DNA of 64,000 nucleotides. Origin: Synechococcus sp. A10-1-5-1 (GTDB taxonomy: Bacteria > Cyanobacteriota > Cyanobacteriia > PCC-6307 > Cyanobiaceae). The stretch is taken from the NCBI RefSeq assembly GCF_023115425.1, contig NZ_CP096032.1, positions 1,054,001 through 1,118,000 of the forward strand, read 5' to 3'. Below, in pieces: positions 1 through 48,877 of this stretch. Position numbers and translations under genes: made by a program. Within the stretch, counting starts at the first letter, position 1; the number at the start of each line of letters is the position of its first letter. The notes beneath the pieces are model-generated. The model ran no database searches and was not told the DNA's origin. It saw only the letters and a program-made list of their open reading frames with translations.

Positions 1-1314
1 CCTGTACTTCCGCAGCACCCGCAAATCAGGGCCGCCTTCAACCAACGGGAGGACCGCGGATACATCAGCCCGATCAGCGGCCAGTGGCGACCGGGGGACA
101 ACCTCGAAGCGCTGATCCTGGAGGCGATCCACTCAGCCCGCTCCGAAGTCCTCGTCGCGGTCCAGGAACTCTCCTTACCGGCCATCGCCAAGGCCCTAGC
201 CCAACAGCACCATCGAGGGATCCAAGTGAAGGTGGTGCTCGAGCACCTCTACAGCCAACCCTGGAGTGAGGAGCATGACGCGGGACTCACGCCCCATCAG
301 CGGCAGCGAAAAAGACAGCTCAGCGCTTTAGCCGACCGGAACGCAGACGGGCACCTCTCGGAAGGCGAACGGCAGCAAGGGGATGCCGTCGGCATCCTTC
401 TGCGCGCGGGGGTACCGCTGATCGATGACACAGCCGATGGCAGCAAAGGCAGCGGGCTGATGCACAGCAAATACCTGGTGGTCGATGGTCAGATCGTGAT
501 CACGGGATCCGCCAACTTCACGGCCTCGGGGATCCATGGGGATCCGGGCGCACCGCAAACCCGAGGCAACACCAACCATCTGCTGCAGATCGAGAGCCCA
601 GCGCTGGCCGCACTCTTCCGCCAGGACTTTGAGCGGATGTGGGGGGACGGCCCTGGGGGAAGAAATGACAGTCGCTTTGGTCTAGGCAAAGGGCAGAGAG
701 CTGCTCAGCTTGTCCGGGTTGGCGACACCGAAATCGCGATTCTTTTTGCTCCCCATCGCCGCCATGACCCACGCAACGGCCTAGCCCTGATTGCGGCCGA
801 GCTGGCGGAGGCAAAGGAACAAATCGATCTCGCCCTGTTTGTTTTCTCCGCCCAGTCACTCACCAACCAACTGGCCTCTCAGCTGCAGAAACAAGTGCGT
901 CTGCGGCTGGTGGCGGATCCGGGCTTTGCCAGCCGGCCTTTTTCTGAAGTCCTGGATCTGCTGGGGGTGGCGATGGCCGACCGCGACTGCAGGATCGAGC
1001 GGGGCAACCAACCGCTCCAACGGGGAGCCGAAGGGGTTGGAACGCCGCAGCTAGCCCGCGGCGACAAGCTGCATCACAAGTTCGCCGTGATCGATCGCAA
1101 GACCGTCATCACCGGCAGCTTCAACTGGAGCCCGAGTGCTGCCCATCAAAACGATGAGGTGCTGCTGGTGATCCGCTCACCGCAGGTCGCTGCCCACTTC
1201 ACCCAAGAGATGGATCGTCTCTGGCGCAGTGCCGATCTGGGCATCACCGAACGATTGCGGCGCAAGCTCGAACGCAACCGCCAGCGCTGCGGCAGTGGGA
1301 TCGAGCGGAATTAA
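1..1314 (+). CDS. Phospholipase D-like protein with EF-hand loop (5' end missing)
   Basis: The reading frame is open from the first base, so the start lies outside the window; 437 residues are visible. Two HKD motifs of the PLD superfamily are present: H-S-K-Y-L-V-V-D at codons 155-162 and H-H-K-F-A-V-I-D at codons 358-365, each followed by a GS.NF or GSFNW motif. Two HKD half-sites usually form one active site for phosphodiester transfer or hydrolysis. Between the first half-domain core and HKD1, codons 112-123 read D-R-N-A-D-G-H-L-S-E-G-E, a canonical 12-residue EF-hand or dockerin-type calcium loop. Family members include nucleases, cardiolipin synthases and secreted endonucleases. The calcium loop suggests an extracellular or periplasmic enzyme, but the signal peptide region is not visible. 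The next gene is convergent. Confidence 0.85.
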   Translation, partial: PVLPQHPQIRAAFNQREDRGYISPISGQWRPGDNLEALILEAIHSARSEVLVAVQELSLPAIAKALAQQHHRGIQVKVVLEHLYSQPWSEEHDAGLTPHQRQRKRQLSALADRNADGHLSEGERQQGDAVGILLRAGVPLIDDTADGSKGSGLMHSKYLVVDGQIVITGSANFTASGIHGDPGAPQTRGNTNHLLQIESPALAALFRQDFERMWGDGPGGRNDSRFGLGKGQRAAQLVRVGDTEIAILFAPHRRHDPRNGLALIAAELAEAKEQIDLALFVFSAQSLTNQLASQLQKQVRLRLVADPGFASRPFSEVLDLLGVAMADRDCRIERGNQPLQRGAEGVGTPQLARGDKLHHKFAVIDRKTVITGSFNWSPSAAHQNDEVLLVIRSPQVAAHFTQEMDRLWRSADLGITERLRRKLERNRQRCGSGIERN

Positions 1315-2189
1315 GCCGGCAGGATCTCGAGCTCGGGATAGGCAGGGGCCATCTCCACCAACCGCTGACGCAGGTGAGCCACGAGGGCCAGGAAGCGCGG
1401 GTGATCGGCAAACCGACGCGGTACGACCACGCTGTCACCCACGGTGAGGGGGATCTCAATCGGCAAAATCACCTGCTGCACCGGAAAGAGCTTGATCGAA
1501 AATGCTGAGGCATAACCGACCGTGACCTCATCAGCGGTTCGTCCTTCCCAAGCCTCGTAGGAGTAACGGCGCACCGCTGTGGGGGAATTCCATAAACCCA
1601 ATCCCTCGAGCGCAGCCTGGCATTGAGGGAGGGCTCCATCAGGCAAAGCCAGGCACGGGAATTGGCGAACATCTTCCAGAGTGACCGCTTCACCCAAGCG
1701 CGTTAAAGGGTGACCTGGAGACACCACCAAGTGAGTGGGCAATCGATCCAGGTGCACAACGGCGAAGTCGACGTCATCGTCATCTGGAACATCTGGAAAC
1801 CCGCCGATCCAAACATCGATAACACCATGCCTCAATAAATTCAAGGGAACAGCAACATCAAGGAAATCAAAGGCACCACATAACCATCCCTGCGGTGGCT
1901 GATCGAGCAATAACGGACCGGAATAATATTGGGCATCAATGCGCAGGGGAAGGTCCCGTTTCCAGCGGCAGTCTTGATGCACCTGCCGCTCCAAGTTCAG
2001 CAGGGTGGGATCGCCAACGACATCCCATTCTCCAGCTGATTTGTTGACATCCAAGCCGAATGCAGCAACAGCACGACGGGCTTTCCGAGACACCGAAGCT
2101 TGATCCAAGTTGAGCCGCTTGGCCACCCGATCGCCGGTGCGCAACCAGATCAAGTAGTCGAGGCAATCCAACTCATCGAGACCAATCAT
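1311..2189 (-). CDS. LysR-like transcriptional regulator, tandem copy 2
   Basis: About 292 residues. I chose the start M-I-G-L-D-E-L-D because it aligns with the start of the upstream paralogue; a longer frame to 2291 would run into that gene. The N-terminal 45 residues look like a winged HTH (C-L-D-Y-L-I-W-L-R, then an N-L-D-Q-A-S-V-S-R-K helix). The remainder resembles a LysR effector (periplasmic-binding-like) domain, with the segment D-V-W-I-G-G-F-P-D-V-P followed by an acidic run. It lies 7 bp downstream of a paralogue on the same strand, so the two are probably cotranscribed. The effector is unknown. The 3' end overlaps the end of the convergent PLD gene by 4 bp. Confidence 0.75.
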   Translation of the reverse strand: MIGLDELDCLDYLIWLRTGDRVAKRLNLDQASVSRKARRAVAAFGLDVNKSAGEWDVVGDPTLLNLERQVHQDCRWKRDLPLRIDAQYYSGPLLLDQPPQGWLCGAFDFLDVAVPLNLLRHGVIDVWIGGFPDVPDDDDVDFAVVHLDRLPTHLVVSPGHPLTRLGEAVTLEDVRQFPCLALPDGALPQCQAALEGLGLWNSPTAVRRYSYEAWEGRTADEVTVGYASAFSIKLFPVQQVILPIEIPLTVGDSVVVPRRFADHPRFLALVAHLRQRLVEMAPAYPELEILPA

Positions 2190-2196
2190 TGGCGTC

Positions 2197-3066
2197 TCAG
2201 CAGGACTCCAAAGCCGGCCGTGATGTGGACAGGAGCTGAGCACGCTCACGCAGCTGAACCACGAGCTGCTGAAAGACCTCGCTGTCAGCAAAACGGCGTT
2301 TGAGCACCAGAGAATCCCCCAAGATCAGCCCCGTCGAAAGCGGCAACGGAACCTTGGCCCCGGCAAAACAGGCAACGGTATGGGGTGACCCGTAGCTGAT
2401 GGTGAGCTGATCCTCGGTACGACCCTCCCAATGGCGGGGCTCATGCCGCGTCGCGCCTACAGGCCTGCGCTCCAGCCCCAAGCCCTTCAGATGCTGCTGC
2501 ATCTTGGGGAACGCTCCATCAGGGAGCGAAAGAACAGGAAATTCCTGCAAGTCCTCGACCGCCAGATCACCCTGATGCTCAAGAAGAGGGTGACAGCGAT
2601 CCACCAAGAAGTAGGCCGGATAACGGCTGAGGTGAACGACAGCGAAGTCATCGTCATCCCCTGGGAGATCGGGGTAGCAACCAATCCACACATCCAAGAT
2701 GGACTCTCGAAGCAGAGCCATGGGATAGGTGATGCCCATGAAGTCAGAGCGGCCGCAGACCCAAGGTCCAGACAACCCATCGAAATAGGGAGAGCCAGCC
2801 CCATAGATGCCGTCAATCCGCAACCCCTGGCCCCGTTCCCAGCGATAAAGCTGATGCACTTCACGCTCGGCATCCAACAGCGAGGCATCACCGGCCAGAG
2901 TCCACTCCCCTTCGAGCTTGCGTGCATCCAGCTTCAGGAAGTCAGCAACAGATCTGGCGTTGCGAGAAATGGTGGCTTGATTACAGGCCAAGCGATTCGT
3001 CGCTTCCTGACCCGATCGCAACCAGATCAAATAATCGAGACAGGACAGACGGAACGGGTCAAACAT
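2197..3066 (-). CDS. LysR-like transcriptional regulator, tandem copy 1
   Basis: 289 residues beginning M-F-D-P-F-R-L-S-C-L-D-Y-L-I-W-L-R. It is clearly homologous along its length to the adjacent downstream gene: shared C-L-D-Y-L-I-W-L-R, A-T/S-I/V-S-R, D-V-W-I-G and P-D-G-A motifs. The N terminus is an HTH with Q-A-T-I-S-R as recognition helix; the rest is a LysR-type ligand-binding fold with an acidic P-G-D-D-D-D-F segment. This diverged LysR-like family seems to be typical of picocyanobacteria (from memory, not searched). First gene of a probable two-gene unit. DNA target and ligand cannot be read from the sequence. Confidence 0.75.
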   Translation of the reverse strand: MFDPFRLSCLDYLIWLRSGQEATNRLACNQATISRNARSVADFLKLDARKLEGEWTLAGDASLLDAEREVHQLYRWERGQGLRIDGIYGAGSPYFDGLSGPWVCGRSDFMGITYPMALLRESILDVWIGCYPDLPGDDDDFAVVHLSRYPAYFLVDRCHPLLEHQGDLAVEDLQEFPVLSLPDGAFPKMQQHLKGLGLERRPVGATRHEPRHWEGRTEDQLTISYGSPHTVACFAGAKVPLPLSTGLILGDSLVLKRRFADSEVFQQLVVQLRERAQLLSTSRPALESC

Positions 3067-43333: not shown

Positions 43334-44592
43334 GCGCTCGCACTTATCACGATCCACTGCACGGGGCGATCCGCCTGTCTCGACGGGAGCCAGCGGAAGC
43401 CCTGGCGATCGATCTGGTCGACACGCCGGTCTTTCAGCGCCTCAGACGCATCCGACAACTGGGACCGGCCTACCTGACCTTCCACGGAGCCGAGTCCAGC
43501 CGCTTCACCCACTCCCTGGGGGTTCTGCATCTGGCCCGCCAAGCCCTGGGGAACCTGGGGCGCAACCATCCGGAACTGGACGAGCACCGTGGAGTGCTCT
43601 ACGCCGCGGCCCTGCTGCACGACGTGGGGCATGGCCCGCTGAGCCACTCCGGGGAGGAGATGTATGGACTGCACCATGAGAGCTGGTCCAGTCGCCTCAT
43701 CCGCGAGCACCCCTCACTGCGGGATCCCCTCGAGGCCTTTGCGCCGGGGACCGCTGATCAAGTGGCGGACCTGCTCGAGCACGGCCGCTACCGCAATCCA
43801 GCGATCAAGGCCCTGGTCAGCAGTCAGCTCGATTGCGATCGCCTCGATTACCTGCTGCGGGACAGCTACAACACCGGGGCCAGCTACGGGGTACTCGACC
43901 TCGAGCGCATCCTCGCCAGCCTGACCCTGGCCCCCGATGGCCAGCTGGCGCTGCAGCCCAAAGGACTCATGGCGGTGGAGCACTACTTAGTGGTGCGAAA
44001 CCTGATGTACCGGAGCGTCTACAACCACCGCCTGAATGTGGTCTGCAACTGGCTGCTGAACCGAACCATCGCGGTCGCACGCGAACTGGGTCCGGCTCAG
44101 ATCTGGGCCGATGCCGTGATGCAGCACTGGCTCTGGGACCCCCAGGCTCTGGATCTCGAGTCGTTTCTGGGTAATGACGATGTCAGAACGGGCTACCACC
44201 TGCAGCGTTGGCTGGAGGAGGGACCGGCCCCGCTCCAACAGCTCTGCCGGCGCGTGCTCAACCGAGAACTGCTGCGGGCCTCGGATCTGAGCCAACTCCC
44301 GCAGGAGAGACGCCTGGCCTTGCTGGCACGAGCACAGACCCTGAGTGAGGCAGCCGGACTCCGCCCAGACCTCTGCTGCGGACTGCACCAGCAGAGCAAC
44401 CACGGGTATCACCCATATAAAGGTGGACTGCGGCTCTGGGATGGCCATCAGCTGGGAGCCATCGAGCAGCGTTCACCCCTGATTCGCAGCTTGATCCAAC
44501 CGACCCAAACCGCCTGGTTGATTCACCCACCGGAGATCACCCCCGCGATCCGCGAGGCCCTGGCCCTGGAAGTTGCGGCTGGAGATCCCTAA
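43330..44592 (+). CDS. HD-domain phosphohydrolase
   Basis: 420 residues, ATG overlapping the ctpA stop (ATGA). HD motif: R-F-T-H-S-L-G-V, then A-A-L-L-H-D-V-G-H-G-P-L-S-H and a later D-R-L-D-Y-L-L-R-D, the pattern of SAMHD1/dGTPase-like hydrolases (YdhJ/Cog1078 type). Likely a metal-dependent nucleotide phosphohydrolase; substrate not decided. Continues the plus-strand series towards minC. Confidence 0.88.
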   Translation: MSARTYHDPLHGAIRLSRREPAEALAIDLVDTPVFQRLRRIRQLGPAYLTFHGAESSRFTHSLGVLHLARQALGNLGRNHPELDEHRGVLYAAALLHDVGHGPLSHSGEEMYGLHHESWSSRLIREHPSLRDPLEAFAPGTADQVADLLEHGRYRNPAIKALVSSQLDCDRLDYLLRDSYNTGASYGVLDLERILASLTLAPDGQLALQPKGLMAVEHYLVVRNLMYRSVYNHRLNVVCNWLLNRTIAVARELGPAQIWADAVMQHWLWDPQALDLESFLGNDDVRTGYHLQRWLEEGPAPLQQLCRRVLNRELLRASDLSQLPQERRLALLARAQTLSEAAGLRPDLCCGLHQQSNHGYHPYKGGLRLWDGHQLGAIEQRSPLIRSLIQPTQTAWLIHPPEITPAIREALALEVAAGDP

Positions 44593-44602
44593 GTTGCACG
44601 CC

Positions 44603-45256
44603 ATGCAGGCTGACTCCCGTCGCTTCCTCCTCAGGCCCCTTCGCAAGGCTGAGGCTTCGCCTCTCGAGGAAATTCGCTCACAGCTGGGGGCTGCAGACGG
44701 CATGGGCACCGCGGCGCTGGTCTGTGAGGACCGCCTCCTGACCCTGCCAGAACTCCAAGCAATTGCCGAGCAGCTCAAAGAAGCCCATTGGACCTTGGTG
44801 CGCGTCGAATCCCGGGAGGCCCTCAGCCTGGTGCCTGCCGCAGCGCTTGGACTGGAGACCGCCCTGATCCGAGACACCCAACGGGAGCCGACTCGAGCTG
44901 GGCCGGACGCCAAGGACCTGACCATCCACCGGGGCACCCTCCGCTCGGGCGACCACCTGCAAGTCGACGGCTCAGTGCTGGTGCTGGGGGATGTGAACCC
45001 GGGGGCCCGGGTCAGCGCTGGCGGGGATGTAAGGGTCTGGGGAAGGCTGCGCGGCATTGCCCATGCCGGCCAAGCCGGCAACACGGCCGCCCGGATCGTG
45101 GCGCTGCAGCTGCGGCCGCTGCAATTGCGGATTGCCAATGCCGTGGCGCGGGGCCCTGAGGATCTTCCTCCTCCAGGATTCAGTGAGGAAGCCCTGCTGA
45201 TCGAGGGGGTGATTGCCATCCGACCGGCCGAACCGCTCTGGCCCCAGGACGGCTAA
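44603..45256 (+). CDS. minC: Septum site-determining protein MinC
   Basis: 217 residues from M-Q-A-D-S-R-R-F-L. Inhibits FtsZ assembly away from midcell, recruited by MinD. The C-terminal beta-helix domain is clear: I-H-R-G-T-L-R-S-G-D-H-L-Q-V-D-G-S-V-L with L-G-D-V-N-P-G-A-R and G-D-V-R-V-W-G-R-L-R-G-I-A-H-A-G, then I-V-A-L-Q-L-R-P-L-Q-L-R-I-A. The N-terminal FtsZ-binding domain is more diverged. The stop overlaps the convergent chromate transporter stop by 4 bp; minD follows only 2.2 kb later. Confidence 0.88.
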   Translation: MQADSRRFLLRPLRKAEASPLEEIRSQLGAADGMGTAALVCEDRLLTLPELQAIAEQLKEAHWTLVRVESREALSLVPAAALGLETALIRDTQREPTRAGPDAKDLTIHRGTLRSGDHLQVDGSVLVLGDVNPGARVSAGGDVRVWGRLRGIAHAGQAGNTAARIVALQLRPLQLRIANAVARGPEDLPPPGFSEEALLIEGVIAIRPAEPLWPQDG

Positions 45257-45849
45257 CGGTTCACCAAGCCGAACGCCCCCAGGCCAGCAGCCACGGCCAT
45301 GAACCAGAGGGGGGAGATCTTGGTGCGCAGCATCAAGAAGCACACCACCGCCGAGACGGCATAGGCCGGCGTGTCGTGATCGGAGATGCGCAGGATCTTC
45401 AGGCCGACGGCAAAGAGCACGCCCAAGGTGATCGGCCCCATCGCCCGCTCGAAGGCCAGCCGAAAGGGTGAGGTCTTGAAGCGATTCCAGCTCAAGGCCG
45501 CGATCACCATCAACAAAGTGGAGGGCAGCAGGATCGCCACCTCCGCCATCACCCCACTAAACAGCGCCCAGAGCGGCCCCTCCTCAAAGGCCGCTCCCAT
45601 GCCAAGCAAGCCCACGATCATGGAGCTCGGGCCCGGGGCCCCTTCGGCAATGGCGTAGATCTCGGCGAACTGCTGGGAGCTGAGCCAGCAGTACTTGTCG
45701 ACCGCCATGTAGTGGTACTCCACCAGCAGCGTGTTCCCACCGCCCAGGGAAAAGAGCGAGAGGCTGAGGAAATCCCAGATCACGGCGATCAGGTTGCGCC
45801 AATCGCCCAGATGGGCTGGTTGGCAGACCGCAGCAAGAAGCAGGGTCAT
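45253..45849 (-). CDS. chrA: Chromate transporter family protein (half-size, second)
   Basis: 198 residues. Short-chain CHR protein: S-L-S-L-F-S-L-G-G-G-N-T-L-L-V, A-E-I-Y-A-I-A-E-G-A-P-G-P-S-S-M and several TM segments. Full-length ChrA consists of two such halves; here they are separate genes. The ATG overlaps the stop of the preceding half by 4 bp (ATGA). CHR proteins export chromate or related oxyanions, but many have other or unknown substrates. Confidence 0.85.
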   Translation of the reverse strand: MTLLLAAVCQPAHLGDWRNLIAVIWDFLSLSLFSLGGGNTLLVEYHYMAVDKYCWLSSQQFAEIYAIAEGAPGPSSMIVGLLGMGAAFEEGPLWALFSGVMAEVAILLPSTLLMVIAALSWNRFKTSPFRLAFERAMGPITLGVLFAVGLKILRISDHDTPAYAVSAVVCFLMLRTKISPLWFMAVAAGLGAFGLVNR

Positions 45850-46379
45850 GGCTTTCTCGGCCAGTACCAGGCCATCGCCAAGGGACCCGCCACCAGCACC
45901 AGGGGCACCAGGCGAACGTGGAAGACGGTCATCGCCACAAAGCTGATGGCCGCCAACAAGAGCGCGACGCGGTCATGGAGATAGGCAGCGGCAATCTTGA
46001 AGCCCATCGAAAGGGCCATCCCTGCGGACGCCGTGATCACTCCCGCCAGGAGACGATCCACCGCCATTGACGTGTGCAGGTAGTAGTAGGCGAGCCCCAG
46101 CCCCATCAAGACGCTGAAGGGCAGCAACAGGATCCCCGCCACGGCCGCCAAGGCACCGCCTAAGCCGCGGAAATGGCTACCGATGTAGATCGCCATGTTG
46201 ATCTGGTTCGGCCCGGGGAAGAGGCGCGCCACCGTCAGACCGGTGATGAACTCCTGCTTGGTCATCCAGGCCTTGTCCTCAACCACGATCCGCTCGCTCC
46301 AGGCCGAGAGCCCGCCGCCAAAGGAGGAGAGAGCGACCTGCTGCATGCCCCAGAACAACTGCCAATGGGTGGGAGGCAT
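45846..46379 (-). CDS. chrA: Chromate transporter family protein (half-size, first)
   Basis: 177 residues. N-terminal CHR motifs: L-S-S-F-G-G-G-L-S-A-W, then T-G-L-T-V-A-R-L-F-P-G-P-N-Q-I-N-M-A, the conserved P-G-P motif, with about five TM segments. The start ATG shares one base with the stop of the upstream PLD-like gene (TGATG), so the three genes form a tight unit. Expected to make a heterodimer with the other half in the inner membrane. Confidence 0.85.
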   Translation of the reverse strand: MPPTHWQLFWGMQQVALSSFGGGLSAWSERIVVEDKAWMTKQEFITGLTVARLFPGPNQINMAIYIGSHFRGLGGALAAVAGILLLPFSVLMGLGLAYYYLHTSMAVDRLLAGVITASAGMALSMGFKIAAAYLHDRVALLLAAISFVAMTVFHVRLVPLVLVAGPLAMAWYWPRKP

Positions 46380-47365
46380 CAGTCGTGAACGAAGTGGGGG
46401 TCGGGCGGCAGCTCTCCCGCCTCGTGATACGCCGGATCCAGGGGGTCAGGGGCGCTGTACTTCTTGGCTGCCTCCCAGTCAGCGTTGAAGGCCTGCGAAA
46501 GCCGAGCGATCACATCGGGCGCATCCACCTCGATGCCCAGTTCCCGGCGGAGATCAAAGGCACTGCGGTCGATGTTCATCGAGCCGGTCAGGGCGGCCTG
46601 CTCATCCACCAGGATCAACTTGGCGTGCAGCTTCGGCTGCTTCTGACGCCGGATCTTGACCCCGGCATGCTCCAGCAGCCGTAGGGAGCTGAAAGTGTCA
46701 TAGACATCCCAATCGCTCAGGCCGTGCTTGCCGCCGCAGAGCACCCGCACCTTCACCCCCCGCTGCTGGGCAGCCACCAGCCGCTCCAGGATCACGGCAT
46801 CCACAAACTTGGGGTGCTGAATCCGCAGTGACTCCTGGGCGCTATCGATCACCCGGGCCATCTGCCCGCGGCTGTGGACATTGCTCCAAACCAAGCCCAC
46901 ATCCAGGCGCGGATCAAACGCCACGCGTTCCCAGTCCGCTTCAAACCCAGCCACCACCTGCTCGATGACCAGCGGGTCATGGCTCACCACGCCGTAATCA
47001 CGGGTTTCGGTGAAGTACTTGTCTGAGAGGTTGAAGGTGGCAATCAGGGCCGCCTGGCCATCGATCACCATGGATTTCTCATGGGTGACCGGGAAGCGCT
47101 CGCTGGTCCAGGCCACCTCCACACCCCAACCCTCAAGCAAGGCATAGGCCTCGTCGTTCCACCGGTCACCGCCGGAGGTATGGGGATTGAGCATCACGCG
47201 AATCTGCACACCGCGCTGCTGGGCGCGAAGCAGGGCCTGCTCGACGGCCTCGCTCTGCAGCTTGAACTGCTTGATCAGTAATTGGGACTGGGCCTGGTCG
47301 ATCAATGCAACGACTGCCTCGGCCCCGTCATCGGGCATCACGAGAAGACGCTGACTGGCTGCCAT
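46379..47365 (-). CDS. Phospholipase D-like (cardiolipin synthase-like) protein
   Basis: 328 residues. Two HKD motifs: T-H-E-K-S-M-V-I-D-G (about residue 94) and K-L-H-A-K-L-I-L-V-D (about residue 245), followed by T-G-S-M-N-I-D. No signal or N-terminal TM helices, unlike true cardiolipin synthases, so it is probably a soluble phosphodiesterase or nuclease. First gene of a unit with the two CHR genes. A distant homologue of the PLD gene at the left end of the window, but without an EF-hand. Confidence 0.83.
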   Translation of the reverse strand: MAASQRLLVMPDDGAEAVVALIDQAQSQLLIKQFKLQSEAVEQALLRAQQRGVQIRVMLNPHTSGGDRWNDEAYALLEGWGVEVAWTSERFPVTHEKSMVIDGQAALIATFNLSDKYFTETRDYGVVSHDPLVIEQVVAGFEADWERVAFDPRLDVGLVWSNVHSRGQMARVIDSAQESLRIQHPKFVDAVILERLVAAQQRGVKVRVLCGGKHGLSDWDVYDTFSSLRLLEHAGVKIRRQKQPKLHAKLILVDEQAALTGSMNIDRSAFDLRRELGIEVDAPDVIARLSQAFNADWEAAKKYSAPDPLDPAYHEAGELPPDPHFVHD

Positions 47366-47444
47366 GGCGGCCCAGAGATGACCTCTGATGTCTAGAGAGA
47401 AACGGCTGAATTGGCCTTAACCTTCAACCACGTTTCGGTTCGCT

Positions 47445-48260
47445 GTGGCCTCCAGTAGTCGCTTCATCCTGATCTGCTCAGGCAAAGGGGGTGTGGGCAA
47501 AACCACCCTCACCGCCAACTTGGGCATTGCTCTAGCCAGGCAGGGCATGCGCACTGCAGTGCTGGATGCCGACTTTGGTCTGCGCAACCTTGATCTCCTG
47601 CTGGGCCTCGAGAACCGGATCGTCTACACCGCCCAGGACGTTCTCGCTGAGACCTGCCGCCTGGAGCAGGCGCTGGTGAAGCACAAGCAGGAGCCCAACC
47701 TGGCTCTGCTGCCGGCGGGAAATCCGCGGATGCTCGAGTGGCTGAAGCCCGAGGACATGCAAACGATCGCCGAGATGCTCGGCGAGATCCATGACGTCGT
47801 GCTGATCGACTGCCCGGCAGGCATCGAGGACGGCTTCAAGAATGCGGCCGCTGCTGCCAAGGAAGCCATCGTCATCACCACCCCTGAAGTGTCCGCGGTG
47901 CGGGACGCTGACCGGGTGATCGGATTGCTCAACACCCGGGGCATCAAGCCGATTCAGATGGTCCTTAACCGGGTTCGCCCGAAGATGATGGCCAACCAGG
48001 AAATGCTGGCGGTGGATGACGTCACCGACATCCTGGCCCTGCCGCTGCTTGGCCTAGTGCTGGAAGACGAGCAGGTGATCGTGAGCACCAACCGCGGTGA
48101 ACCCCTCACCCTGAACGGCTCCAACTCCCCCGCCGCGACGGCCTACAGCAACATCGCCCGGAGGATCTGCGGTGAGGACGTGCCGCTCATCGATCCCTCC
48201 AAGGTGAAGCAAGGCTTGCGCGCCAAGCTCAGCCGCCTGATGCAAACCAAGATTTTCTGA
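47445..48260 (+). CDS. minD: Septum site-determining ATPase MinD
   Basis: 271 residues, GTG start. Deviant Walker [12 protein letters not shown] at residues 10-20, [10 protein letters not shown] and D-C-P-A-G-I-E. The C-terminal amphipathic membrane-targeting helix [12 protein letters not shown] is intact. Membrane ATPase that positions MinC; followed 4 bp later by minE. Confidence 0.97.
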
Positions 48261-48264
48261 ACTG

Positions 48265-48639
48265 ATGAGCCTGCGCGAATTCATCGACAAGTTGCTTGGG
48301 CGTCAGCCCGCCAGCGCCACCACGGCCAAGGAGCGCCTGCAGCTGGTGCTGGCCCATGACCGCAGCGACCTGAACCCAGAACTGCTGGAGCAGATGCGCC
48401 GCGAGATCCTCGAGGTGGTTAGCCGCTACGTCGAGATCGACCTCAGCGAAGGCGATGTCAGCCTCGAGACCGAGGACCGCGTGACCGCCCTGGTGGCCAA
48501 CCTGCCGATCCGGCGGGCCATCTTCAAACCCACCCCGGCCGAAACCGAGGACGAAGCAGAGGCAGAGGAAACCAACGAAGCCCCTACAGCCGAAGCAGAA
48601 GAGAGCGAAGCCGAAGAGGCCATCGTCAGCCAGGGCTGA
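48265..48639 (+). CDS. minE: Cell division topological specificity factor MinE
   Basis: 124 residues. The MinE core spans about residues 1-90 ([29 protein letters not shown]). The last about 35 residues are a low-complexity Glu/Ala tail ([13 protein letters not shown]) not present in E. coli MinE (88 residues). Drives MinD oscillation. Cotranscribed with minD. Confidence 0.95.
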
Positions 48640-48673: not shown

Positions 48674-48877
48674 ATGGTTGCCCCCGCAGGACTTCAACCC
48701 ACCCCAGCAGAGCGGCGCGTGCTCTCTGAATTGCGACACGGCAAAAGCAACGGATCGATCGCGACCGCCCTGGCCATCAGCCGGCGCACGGTCGAATGCC
48801 ACCTCTCACGACTCCTCAGCAAAACCGGTTGCCGCAACCGCACCCAGCTGCTGCTCTGGTCCATGACCGAGCGATAA
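48674..48877 (+). CDS. LuxR-type HTH protein without receiver domain
   Basis: 67 residues, essentially only a GerE/LuxR helix-turn-helix: L-T/P-x-A-E-R-R-V-L-S-E-L-R-H-G-K-S-N-G-S-I-A-T-A-L-A-I-S-R-R-T-V-E-C-H-L-S-R-L-L-S-K. The usual N-terminal sensor or receiver is missing, so activity may depend on amount or a partner. Between minE (34 bp upstream) and tRNA-Thr; it could be cotranscribed with minDE. Confidence 0.85.
   Translation: MVAPAGLQPTPAERRVLSELRHGKSNGSIATALAISRRTVECHLSRLLSKTGCRNRTQLLLWSMTER

Follow-up and report, generated by a model that had tools for sequence, protein, structure and literature searches.

We analysed a stretch of 64,000 nucleotides from the genome of Synechococcus sp. 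A10-1-5-1 (contig NZ_CP096032.1, positions 1,054,001 to 1,118,000; the window) and found that its minC and minD genes are separated by three minus-strand genes, which encode a phospholipase D-like protein (PLD) and two half-size proteins of the CHR superfamily (CHR1 and CHR2). The same order PLD-CHR1-CHR2 occurs in cyanobacteria, actinobacteria and Verrucomicrobiota, and most of the gene junctions overlap. The explanation we prefer, although only tentatively, is that these genes constitute a conserved, horizontally spread envelope module, in which a cytosolic PLD with two HKD motifs is combined with a split CHR anion transporter. The families of the components are already known and the new part is their combination; no description of a PLD-CHR-CHR system was found in the Creative Commons-licensed text of PubMed Central. 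CHR proteins are usually annotated as chromate transporters and, to our knowledge, few of them have a known natural substrate. An enzyme partner that is nearly constant in three phyla offers a handle on their real cargo. Moreover, the minCDE cluster of many picocyanobacteria is split by this acquired unit, which is also present at a second division locus.

The unit interrupts the min cluster

An earlier note on this stretch had described minC (plus strand), the overlapping genes PLD-CHR1-CHR2 (minus strand) and minD-minE (plus strand), and had interpreted the three genes in the middle as an inserted unit. The order was confirmed by the open reading frames (ORFs), the sequence and Pfam/NCBIfam scans, and the insertion was borne out when we surveyed the window's family in 151 genomes, among them the window's own. 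The PLD of the cassette was present in 51 of these genomes, at 52 places and in 15 of the 59 genera sampled. It was divergent to minD at all 52 places (76-177 bp apart, match to match) and minC was located on the far side of the cassette at 49 of them; for the remaining three (two in G087, one in G127; G denotes genomes and L loci) there was no minC match at the cut-off. CHR1 followed PLD at 49 of the 52 places, the exceptions being G124, G142 and G045. When the family genomes without PLD were inspected, minC was directly upstream of minD on the same strand at 84 of 84 minD places. Thus, adjacency of minC and minD is the usual state, which has been split by the unit, and the possibility that minC is unlinked in cassette-free relatives as well does not apply.

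According to the simplest reading, an ancestor within the window's family gained the block between minC and minD. Over 48 loci the distances of PLD were in step with those of CHR1 (r 0.85), CHR2 (0.89), minC (0.89) and minD (0.76), which fits vertical inheritance since that gain. In a phylum-wide set of 244 genomes, PLD was matched with E 1e-40 or better in 10. Four of them, all from the window's family, carried a PLD of 73-100% identity. The other six cyanobacterial genomes had homologues of 34-38% identity at eight places. Their 1.5-kb flanks, some of which were shortened by contig ends (L203 starts inside its PLD gene), gave no CHR match.

Occurrence at other sites and in other phyla

A search of the genome collection gave 102 loci encoding a relative, of which we kept 80. 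Among these 80, both CHR halves were matched behind PLD in 77, a count that takes in L191, whose CHR pair is broken, and L155, in which CHR2 is spread over two frames; the exceptions were L189, where the CHR genes are lost, and L140 and L146, where the contigs end. By title or content 72 of the 80 loci were cyanobacterial; 68 of these represent the min site and four (L154, L167, L178, L190) lie elsewhere. One contig with a cyanobacterial minC and the block (L187) is labelled as a metagenome-assembled genome of Bifidobacterium breve, yet it is probably mis-binned.

At L167 and L178, the block has a miaB-like gene on one side and ddl on the other, and ddl is followed by ftsQ and ftsZ in the same direction. 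At L154, it directly precedes ddl-ftsQ-ftsZ, and about 4.6 kb, which hold a weak partial MiaB match, separate miaB from PLD. A ddl search of 61 family genomes gave a match in 52, and a miaB-like gene was directly upstream of ddl (46-125 bp) in 30 of the 30 family ddl loci listed, own genome included, so that the block interrupts the miaB-ddl cluster too. Since minC adjoins minD in the three genomes that carry L154, L167 and L178, the min site is empty there; the genome of L190 gave no minD match at the cut-off. It is striking that two of the three site types seen in cyanobacteria are division loci, although this observation was made post hoc. L178 and L154/L167 may go back to a single event, for which the forks of the PLD tree leave room.

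Eight loci came from other phyla as judged by record title (Chthoniobacterales, Mycobacterium/Mycolicibacterium and an uncultured actinobacterium), and PLD-CHR1-CHR2 was seen in all eight. In the order of the Mycolicibacterium genome G375, which we take to be Mycobacteriales, 9 of 298 genomes had a PLD at E 1e-60 or better. For the copies with 53-56% identity, matches to CHR1 and CHR2 followed in 7 of 7 cases, the pair being collapsed by a deletion in L231 (G566); no CHR gene was found near the copies with 39-40% identity (L234, L235). The phylum of the Chthoniobacterales genome G374 (Verrucomicrobiota) yielded a PLD-profile match at E 1e-60 or better in 6 of 337 genomes, with the CHR pair behind PLD in all six. 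The PLD copies of G960 and G1013 have the pair although they are merely 40-43% identical to the window PLD, so identity alone does not sort CHR-linked from unlinked copies. In G1013 (L255/L257) the PLD gene is duplicated ahead of the CHR pair, giving the tandem PLD-PLD-CHR1-CHR2. Plasmid homologues of PLD (eight records, all below 60% identity) showed no CHR match at the two inspected, H1 (40%) and H3 (30%).

A quick PLD tree was made before the survey of the G374 phylum from 58 of 91 rows, with the min-site rows thinned. It placed the cyanobacterial rows on one side (Shimodaira-Hasegawa-like approximate likelihood ratio test, SH-aLRT, 90, not starred), the actinobacterial and verrucomicrobial rows on the other side (90) and three distant CHR-less rows outside (SH-aLRT 100). 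Taken together, co-occurrence of the three genes is seen at sites unrelated to each other and extends over several phyla. The question whether PLD-ChrA-ChrA travels as a block can be answered with yes (ddl-ftsQ-ftsZ site, another cyanobacterial site, actinobacteria, Verrucomicrobiota), and the concern that PLD might never stand beside chrA elsewhere was dispelled by this linkage at other loci and in other phyla.

Gene overlaps, selection and decay

PLD and CHR1 overlapped in 71 of 84 loci, and CHR1 and CHR2 overlapped by 1-8 nucleotides in 69 of 84; for these counts the start nearest to the preceding stop was used, a choice that favours overlap. When we compared the window with L121, the ratios of nonsynonymous to synonymous substitution rates (dN/dS) were 0.075 for PLD, 0.062 for CHR1, 0.060 for CHR2, 0.144 for minC and 0.018 for minD. 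The corresponding values for L122, which is further off, were 0.143, 0.210, 0.162, 0.264 and 0.126. In these comparisons of the window with its close relatives, purifying selection is evident on PLD, CHR1 and CHR2 alike.

Loss of the CHR genes goes along with changes in PLD in part of the cases. We compared 87 PLD rows (L234, L235 and L210 were left out as far relatives, L197 and L229 as near-duplicate and duplicate), and rows in which the CHR genes run off the contig were counted as CHR-intact. At 96 columns scored as invariant in CHR-intact rows, the CHR-less G124 (L189, Synechococcus sp. 1G10) and G142 (L246) had 6 and 9 changes, while 75 of the 83 CHR-intact rows had none, four had one and four had two. 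PLD of both CHR-less genomes carries K97T (in HKD1), N112D, K116Q, Q33L and N264S, and because these changes are shared they most likely reflect one event. The dN/dS between L189 and L246 was 0.235, a mild rise over the 0.097-0.145 among CHR-intact sisters. In G045 the PLD match ends early, at residue 179, and what is left of CHR2 is a remnant of 34 residues. On the basis of the overlaps, the selection and this partial co-decay, the proposal of the earlier note that the three genes serve one function appears likely.

Properties of the PLD and CHR proteins

The window PLD has the two HxKx4D motifs and the fold of the two-HKD PLD superfamily. Both motifs are complete and in one chain: HKD1 is HEKSMVID (H95, K97, D102) and HKD2 is HAKLILVD (H247, K249, D254). 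The protein is acidic (isoelectric point 5.3) and has no membrane segment (top 19-residue hydropathy 0.95). Its structure model (predicted local distance difference test score, pLDDT, 87.5) gave the phospholipase D 7e0m as best PDB match (Z 30.8, root-mean-square deviation 2.8, 307 residues), followed by the PLD3/PLD4 nucleases (Z about 29-30) and then by F13, polyphosphate kinase, PLD2 and phosphatidylserine synthase. Since 7e0m is tied with the nucleases, the fold by itself cannot separate a lipase from a nuclease. The cut-off of the cardiolipin synthase family TIGR04265 was not reached by PLD (77.7 of 290 bits).

CHR1 and CHR2 belong to the CHR superfamily, with 103.3 and 94.5 bits against PF02417 (Chromate_transp, cut-off 28.6). 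They align to positions 6-167 and 201-366, respectively, of the full-length ChrA family TIGR00937 and therefore resemble the two halves, N-terminal and C-terminal, of one split transporter. Neither protein reached the curated cut-offs for chromate exporters (TIGR00937, NF053759, NF053760). The TIGR00937 scores were 55.3 and 53.8 of 171.7 bits, a full-length cut-off that a half-length protein can hardly reach, and the best score against the half-length model NF053759 (180 positions) was 47.2 of 250 bits. With the CHR1 model (pLDDT 79.9, predicted TM score 0.58), the best that the structure searches gave was E 3.2 (Foldseek) and Z 6.4 (VIA-align), and a sequence search of the PDB gave a single match for CHR1 (E 0.2) that is of no use. 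We also considered a CHR half as kin of undecaprenyl-phosphate flippases, but the structure searches gave nothing usable and no conclusion was drawn. A second split CHR pair with no PLD match within its 1.5-kb flanks was seen in one genome (L222, G377:C142), which harbours it besides the first pair.

Genes next to the block outside cyanobacteria

We compared 14 actinobacterial or verrucomicrobial loci; the genes for some of the Pfam neighbour scans came from a rough ORF caller, and several were mis-called, the PLD of some loci included. An LPG_synthase_TM (MprF-flippase-like) gene was present behind CHR2 in 7 of the 14 (L194, L198, L199, L200, L228, L232, L236), and the copy of L198 exceeded the TIGR00374 cut-off (52.9 bits, cut-off 43.2). 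Ahead of PLD, the same seven loci matched a small gene that belongs to no known family. In L198 (9405-9932) its product gave no Pfam or NCBIfam match, and in L198 and L236 the start looks by eye like a signal peptide; L195-L197 and L239 had weaker matches to the L198 protein, which do not lie at the block. ATP-binding cassette (ABC) half-transporters resembling MsbA followed the block in 5 of the 14 loci (L195, L196, L197, L238, L239). We call the L195 genes MsbA-like and not members of that family because they scored 401 of 602 bits against the MsbA model. L237 and L192 had neither flippase-like nor ABC genes behind the block. As some loci are near-copies (L199/L200; L195-L197), the independent cases are fewer than counted.

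Proposed function

Judged by their neighbour genes in actinobacteria, the three genes would be concerned with envelope lipids rather than with oxyanion stress. In the module that we propose, CHR1 and CHR2 would assemble into a single heteromeric anion transporter in the membrane and PLD would be its dedicated cytosolic enzyme. The most likely target of the enzyme would be a phospholipid of the membrane or a similar phosphodiester, which would undergo headgroup exchange or cleavage, and the substrate or product, an anion, would be moved through the membrane by the transporter. PLD is probably lipid-directed, which we assume because of its fold and because of the genes often found behind the block in actinobacteria (MprF-flippase-like genes, MsbA-like ABC pairs).

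A bolder version, to which we assign little probability, says that the cargo of the CHR pair is a lipid-linked or headgroup anion and not an oxyanion, and that PLD makes or removes the headgroup. The three proteins would then be a system for remodelling and flipping anionic lipids that shapes the membrane for division and wall growth. If so, the siting by minD or ddl-ftsQ-ftsZ in cyanobacteria and by an MprF-like flippase in actinobacteria would reflect this role. Membrane binding of the minD product needs anionic lipid.

A number of observations weigh against the envelope module. The neighbours in the window are division genes and not lipid genes. The fold family of PLD includes nucleases (PLD3/4), and its top NCBIfam sequence match is DrmC of the DISARM defence system (NF038319), although with 89.2 of 133 bits this match is under the cut-off. 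The CHR1 model has no meaningful structural match, and identity is no clean marker of linkage, with CHR-linked PLD at 40-43% (G960, G1013) and unlinked copies at 39-40%. L191 (CHR1 stop and deletion) and L231/G566 retain a PLD with complete HKD motifs. The PLD proteins of L191 and L231 show 0 and 1 changes and are not singled out by dN/dS; minD dN/dS was raised too in L191, and there was no rise in L231. These cases speak against a strict dependence of PLD on the CHR pair. Because the CHR-intact L130 has D254N in HKD2, HKD changes are not confined to CHR-less genomes. Finally, the dN/dS of the mutated PLD in the 1G10 group was not 1 but 0.235 when the two members were compared and 0.12-0.14 versus sisters.

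Alternative explanations

A unit for oxyanion or phosphorus nutrition is a possible alternative, although we consider it doubtful. The CHR pair would move sulfate-, phosphate- or chromate-like anions and PLD would hydrolyse phosphodiesters under phosphorus shortage, for instance phosphatidylglycerol or glycerophosphodiesters. The Pfam assignment to the CHR family agrees with this idea. Excerpts of a table in PMC11358556 list the chromate-transporter (ChrA) mutant A1320 of Synechococcus PCC 7002 among the phosphorus-deficiency genes, with 98.84% and 63.99% as the entries of its two columns, and the low value would support it. Excerpts of two other papers report ChrA of marine picocyanobacteria to be enriched in phosphorus-poor waters (PMC7522525, PMC10119275). 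The excerpts of all three papers speak of ChrA and mention no PLD partner. Moreover, the actinobacterial genes behind the block point to envelope lipids.

Classical chromate resistance, conferred by a split CHR pair as in YwrB/YwrA of Bacillus subtilis with PLD as an accessory, is improbable. The split architecture is the same, CHR1 and CHR2 correspond to the two halves of TIGR00937, and according to the excerpted text of PMC8940164 YwrBA is an SCHR chromate efflux pair. However, the TIGR00937 scores are far under the cut-off, even if half-length proteins were compared with a full-length model, and neither a ChrS/ChrB-type regulator nor a resistance gene was present among the eight window proteins scanned.

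It is very unlikely that the genes form a defence unit, with PLD as nuclease or membrane effector and the CHR proteins as its membrane partner. DrmC is the top match of PLD not only in NCBIfam but also in PADLOC (E 1.1e-23), and the spread in the order of G375 is patchy (9 of 298). On the other hand, the DrmC score lies under the NCBIfam cut-off and CHR1 and CHR2 had no PADLOC match. The cyanobacterial site is nearly constant and the PLD distances track those of minC and minD, unlike what is seen for defence islands; the acidic nature of PLD is weak evidence against a nuclease. Chance adjacency of the PLD gene and the CHR pair, which the earlier note had raised, can be rejected almost entirely, for although CHR proteins otherwise have no functional tie to division loci, the genes recur in this order in three phyla and at a number of unconnected sites, with frequent overlaps.

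Organization of the window

The coordinates of the locus are summarized in Table 1. The PLD stop and the CHR1 start have one nucleotide in common (TGATG), the CHR1 stop and the CHR2 start have four (ATGA), and the 3' ends of CHR2 and the convergent minC overlap by four nucleotides. An alternative in-frame ATG start of minC is located at 44603.

Table 1. Features of the min locus in the window
Feature	Position	Strand	Length	Description
PLD	46379-47365	-	328 amino acids	First gene of the unit; PLDc_2 171 bits (Pfam), two stretches
CHR1	45846-46379	-	177 amino acids	Putative N-half of split CHR-family anion transporter; PF02417
CHR2	45253-45849	-	198 amino acids	Putative C-half of split CHR-family transporter; PF02417
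minC	44573-45256	+		Left flank, convergent with CHR2; MinC_C 98 bits; TTG start as listed
minD	47445-48260	+		Right flank, divergent from PLD; GTG start; TIGR01968 (minD_bact) 345.7 bits, cut-off 212.9
minE	48265-48639	+		PF03776 91 bits
PLD-minD intergenic region	47366-47444	between divergent genes		Holds minD -10-like box TTAACCT at 47417-47423

A TTARYCT box was present in 41 of 67 PLD-minD intergenic regions, compared with an average of 0.68 of 67 after mononucleotide shuffling, and 38 of the 41 boxes sit 28-38 bases ahead of the first aligned MinD residue. Since the loci are related, the 41 boxes stand for conservation and not for independent cases. We read TTARYCT as a -10 box of minD, and minD is likely to have a promoter of its own rather than to be read through from minC. 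The unit is directed away from minD and the box is conserved; therefore, the unit and minDE probably have separate promoters.

Directly behind minE (48674-48877, plus strand), the window encodes a 67-residue LuxR-type helix-turn-helix protein with PedR as top NCBIfam match (45.4 of 120 bits). About 45 kb from the cassette (1-1314, plus strand), there is a second two-domain protein of the PLD family with the motifs HSKYLVVD and HHKFAVID and an insert in the first domain region; its frame runs on leftwards past the window (542 amino acids in the genome). Elsewhere in the 2.4-Mb genome, PLDc_2 matches at G000:C1 607063-607878 and 1645197-1646018 lie in separate frames of 716 and 722 amino acids, which probably encode two polyphosphate kinases. 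The idea that the cassette PLD is the sole PLD of the genome is ruled out by these three frames. Two adjoining ORFs at 1311-3066 (minus strand, 326 and 289 amino acids) look like tandem paralogues, with LDCLDYLIWLR or a nearly identical sequence not far from the start of each.

Comparison with known systems

Compared with full-length ChrA (LCHR, TIGR00937), to whose N- and C-half they align, CHR1 and CHR2 are split in two genes and linked to PLD. ChrA has an FGGP motif, and the window pair has FGGG and GGGN in its place. The closest parallel to the split is YwrB/YwrA (Chr3N/Chr3C) of B. subtilis, two half-size CHR genes that give one efflux system according to excerpts of PMC8940164. There, the pair has the regulator ChrS and the excerpts mention no PLD, whereas PLD comes first in our unit and the cut-offs for chromate efflux are missed.

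DISARM DrmC is the top NCBIfam and PADLOC match of PLD, but it remains below the cut-off and the neighbours scanned were min genes and the CHR pair. As to MprF and other proteins with a TIGR00374 flippase domain, scans of neighbouring genes at cyanobacterial loci showed no such gene next to the block, but one follows the block in seven actinobacterial loci. Cardiolipin synthases have N-terminal membrane segments. With these enzymes and with two-HKD phospholipase D (7e0m, TIGR04265), the window PLD shares two complete HKD motifs and the fold. It differs from them in that it lacks a transmembrane segment and misses the TIGR04265 cut-off, in its genetic tie to the CHR pair and in a C-terminal tail (about residues 303-328) that is partly conserved across phyla.

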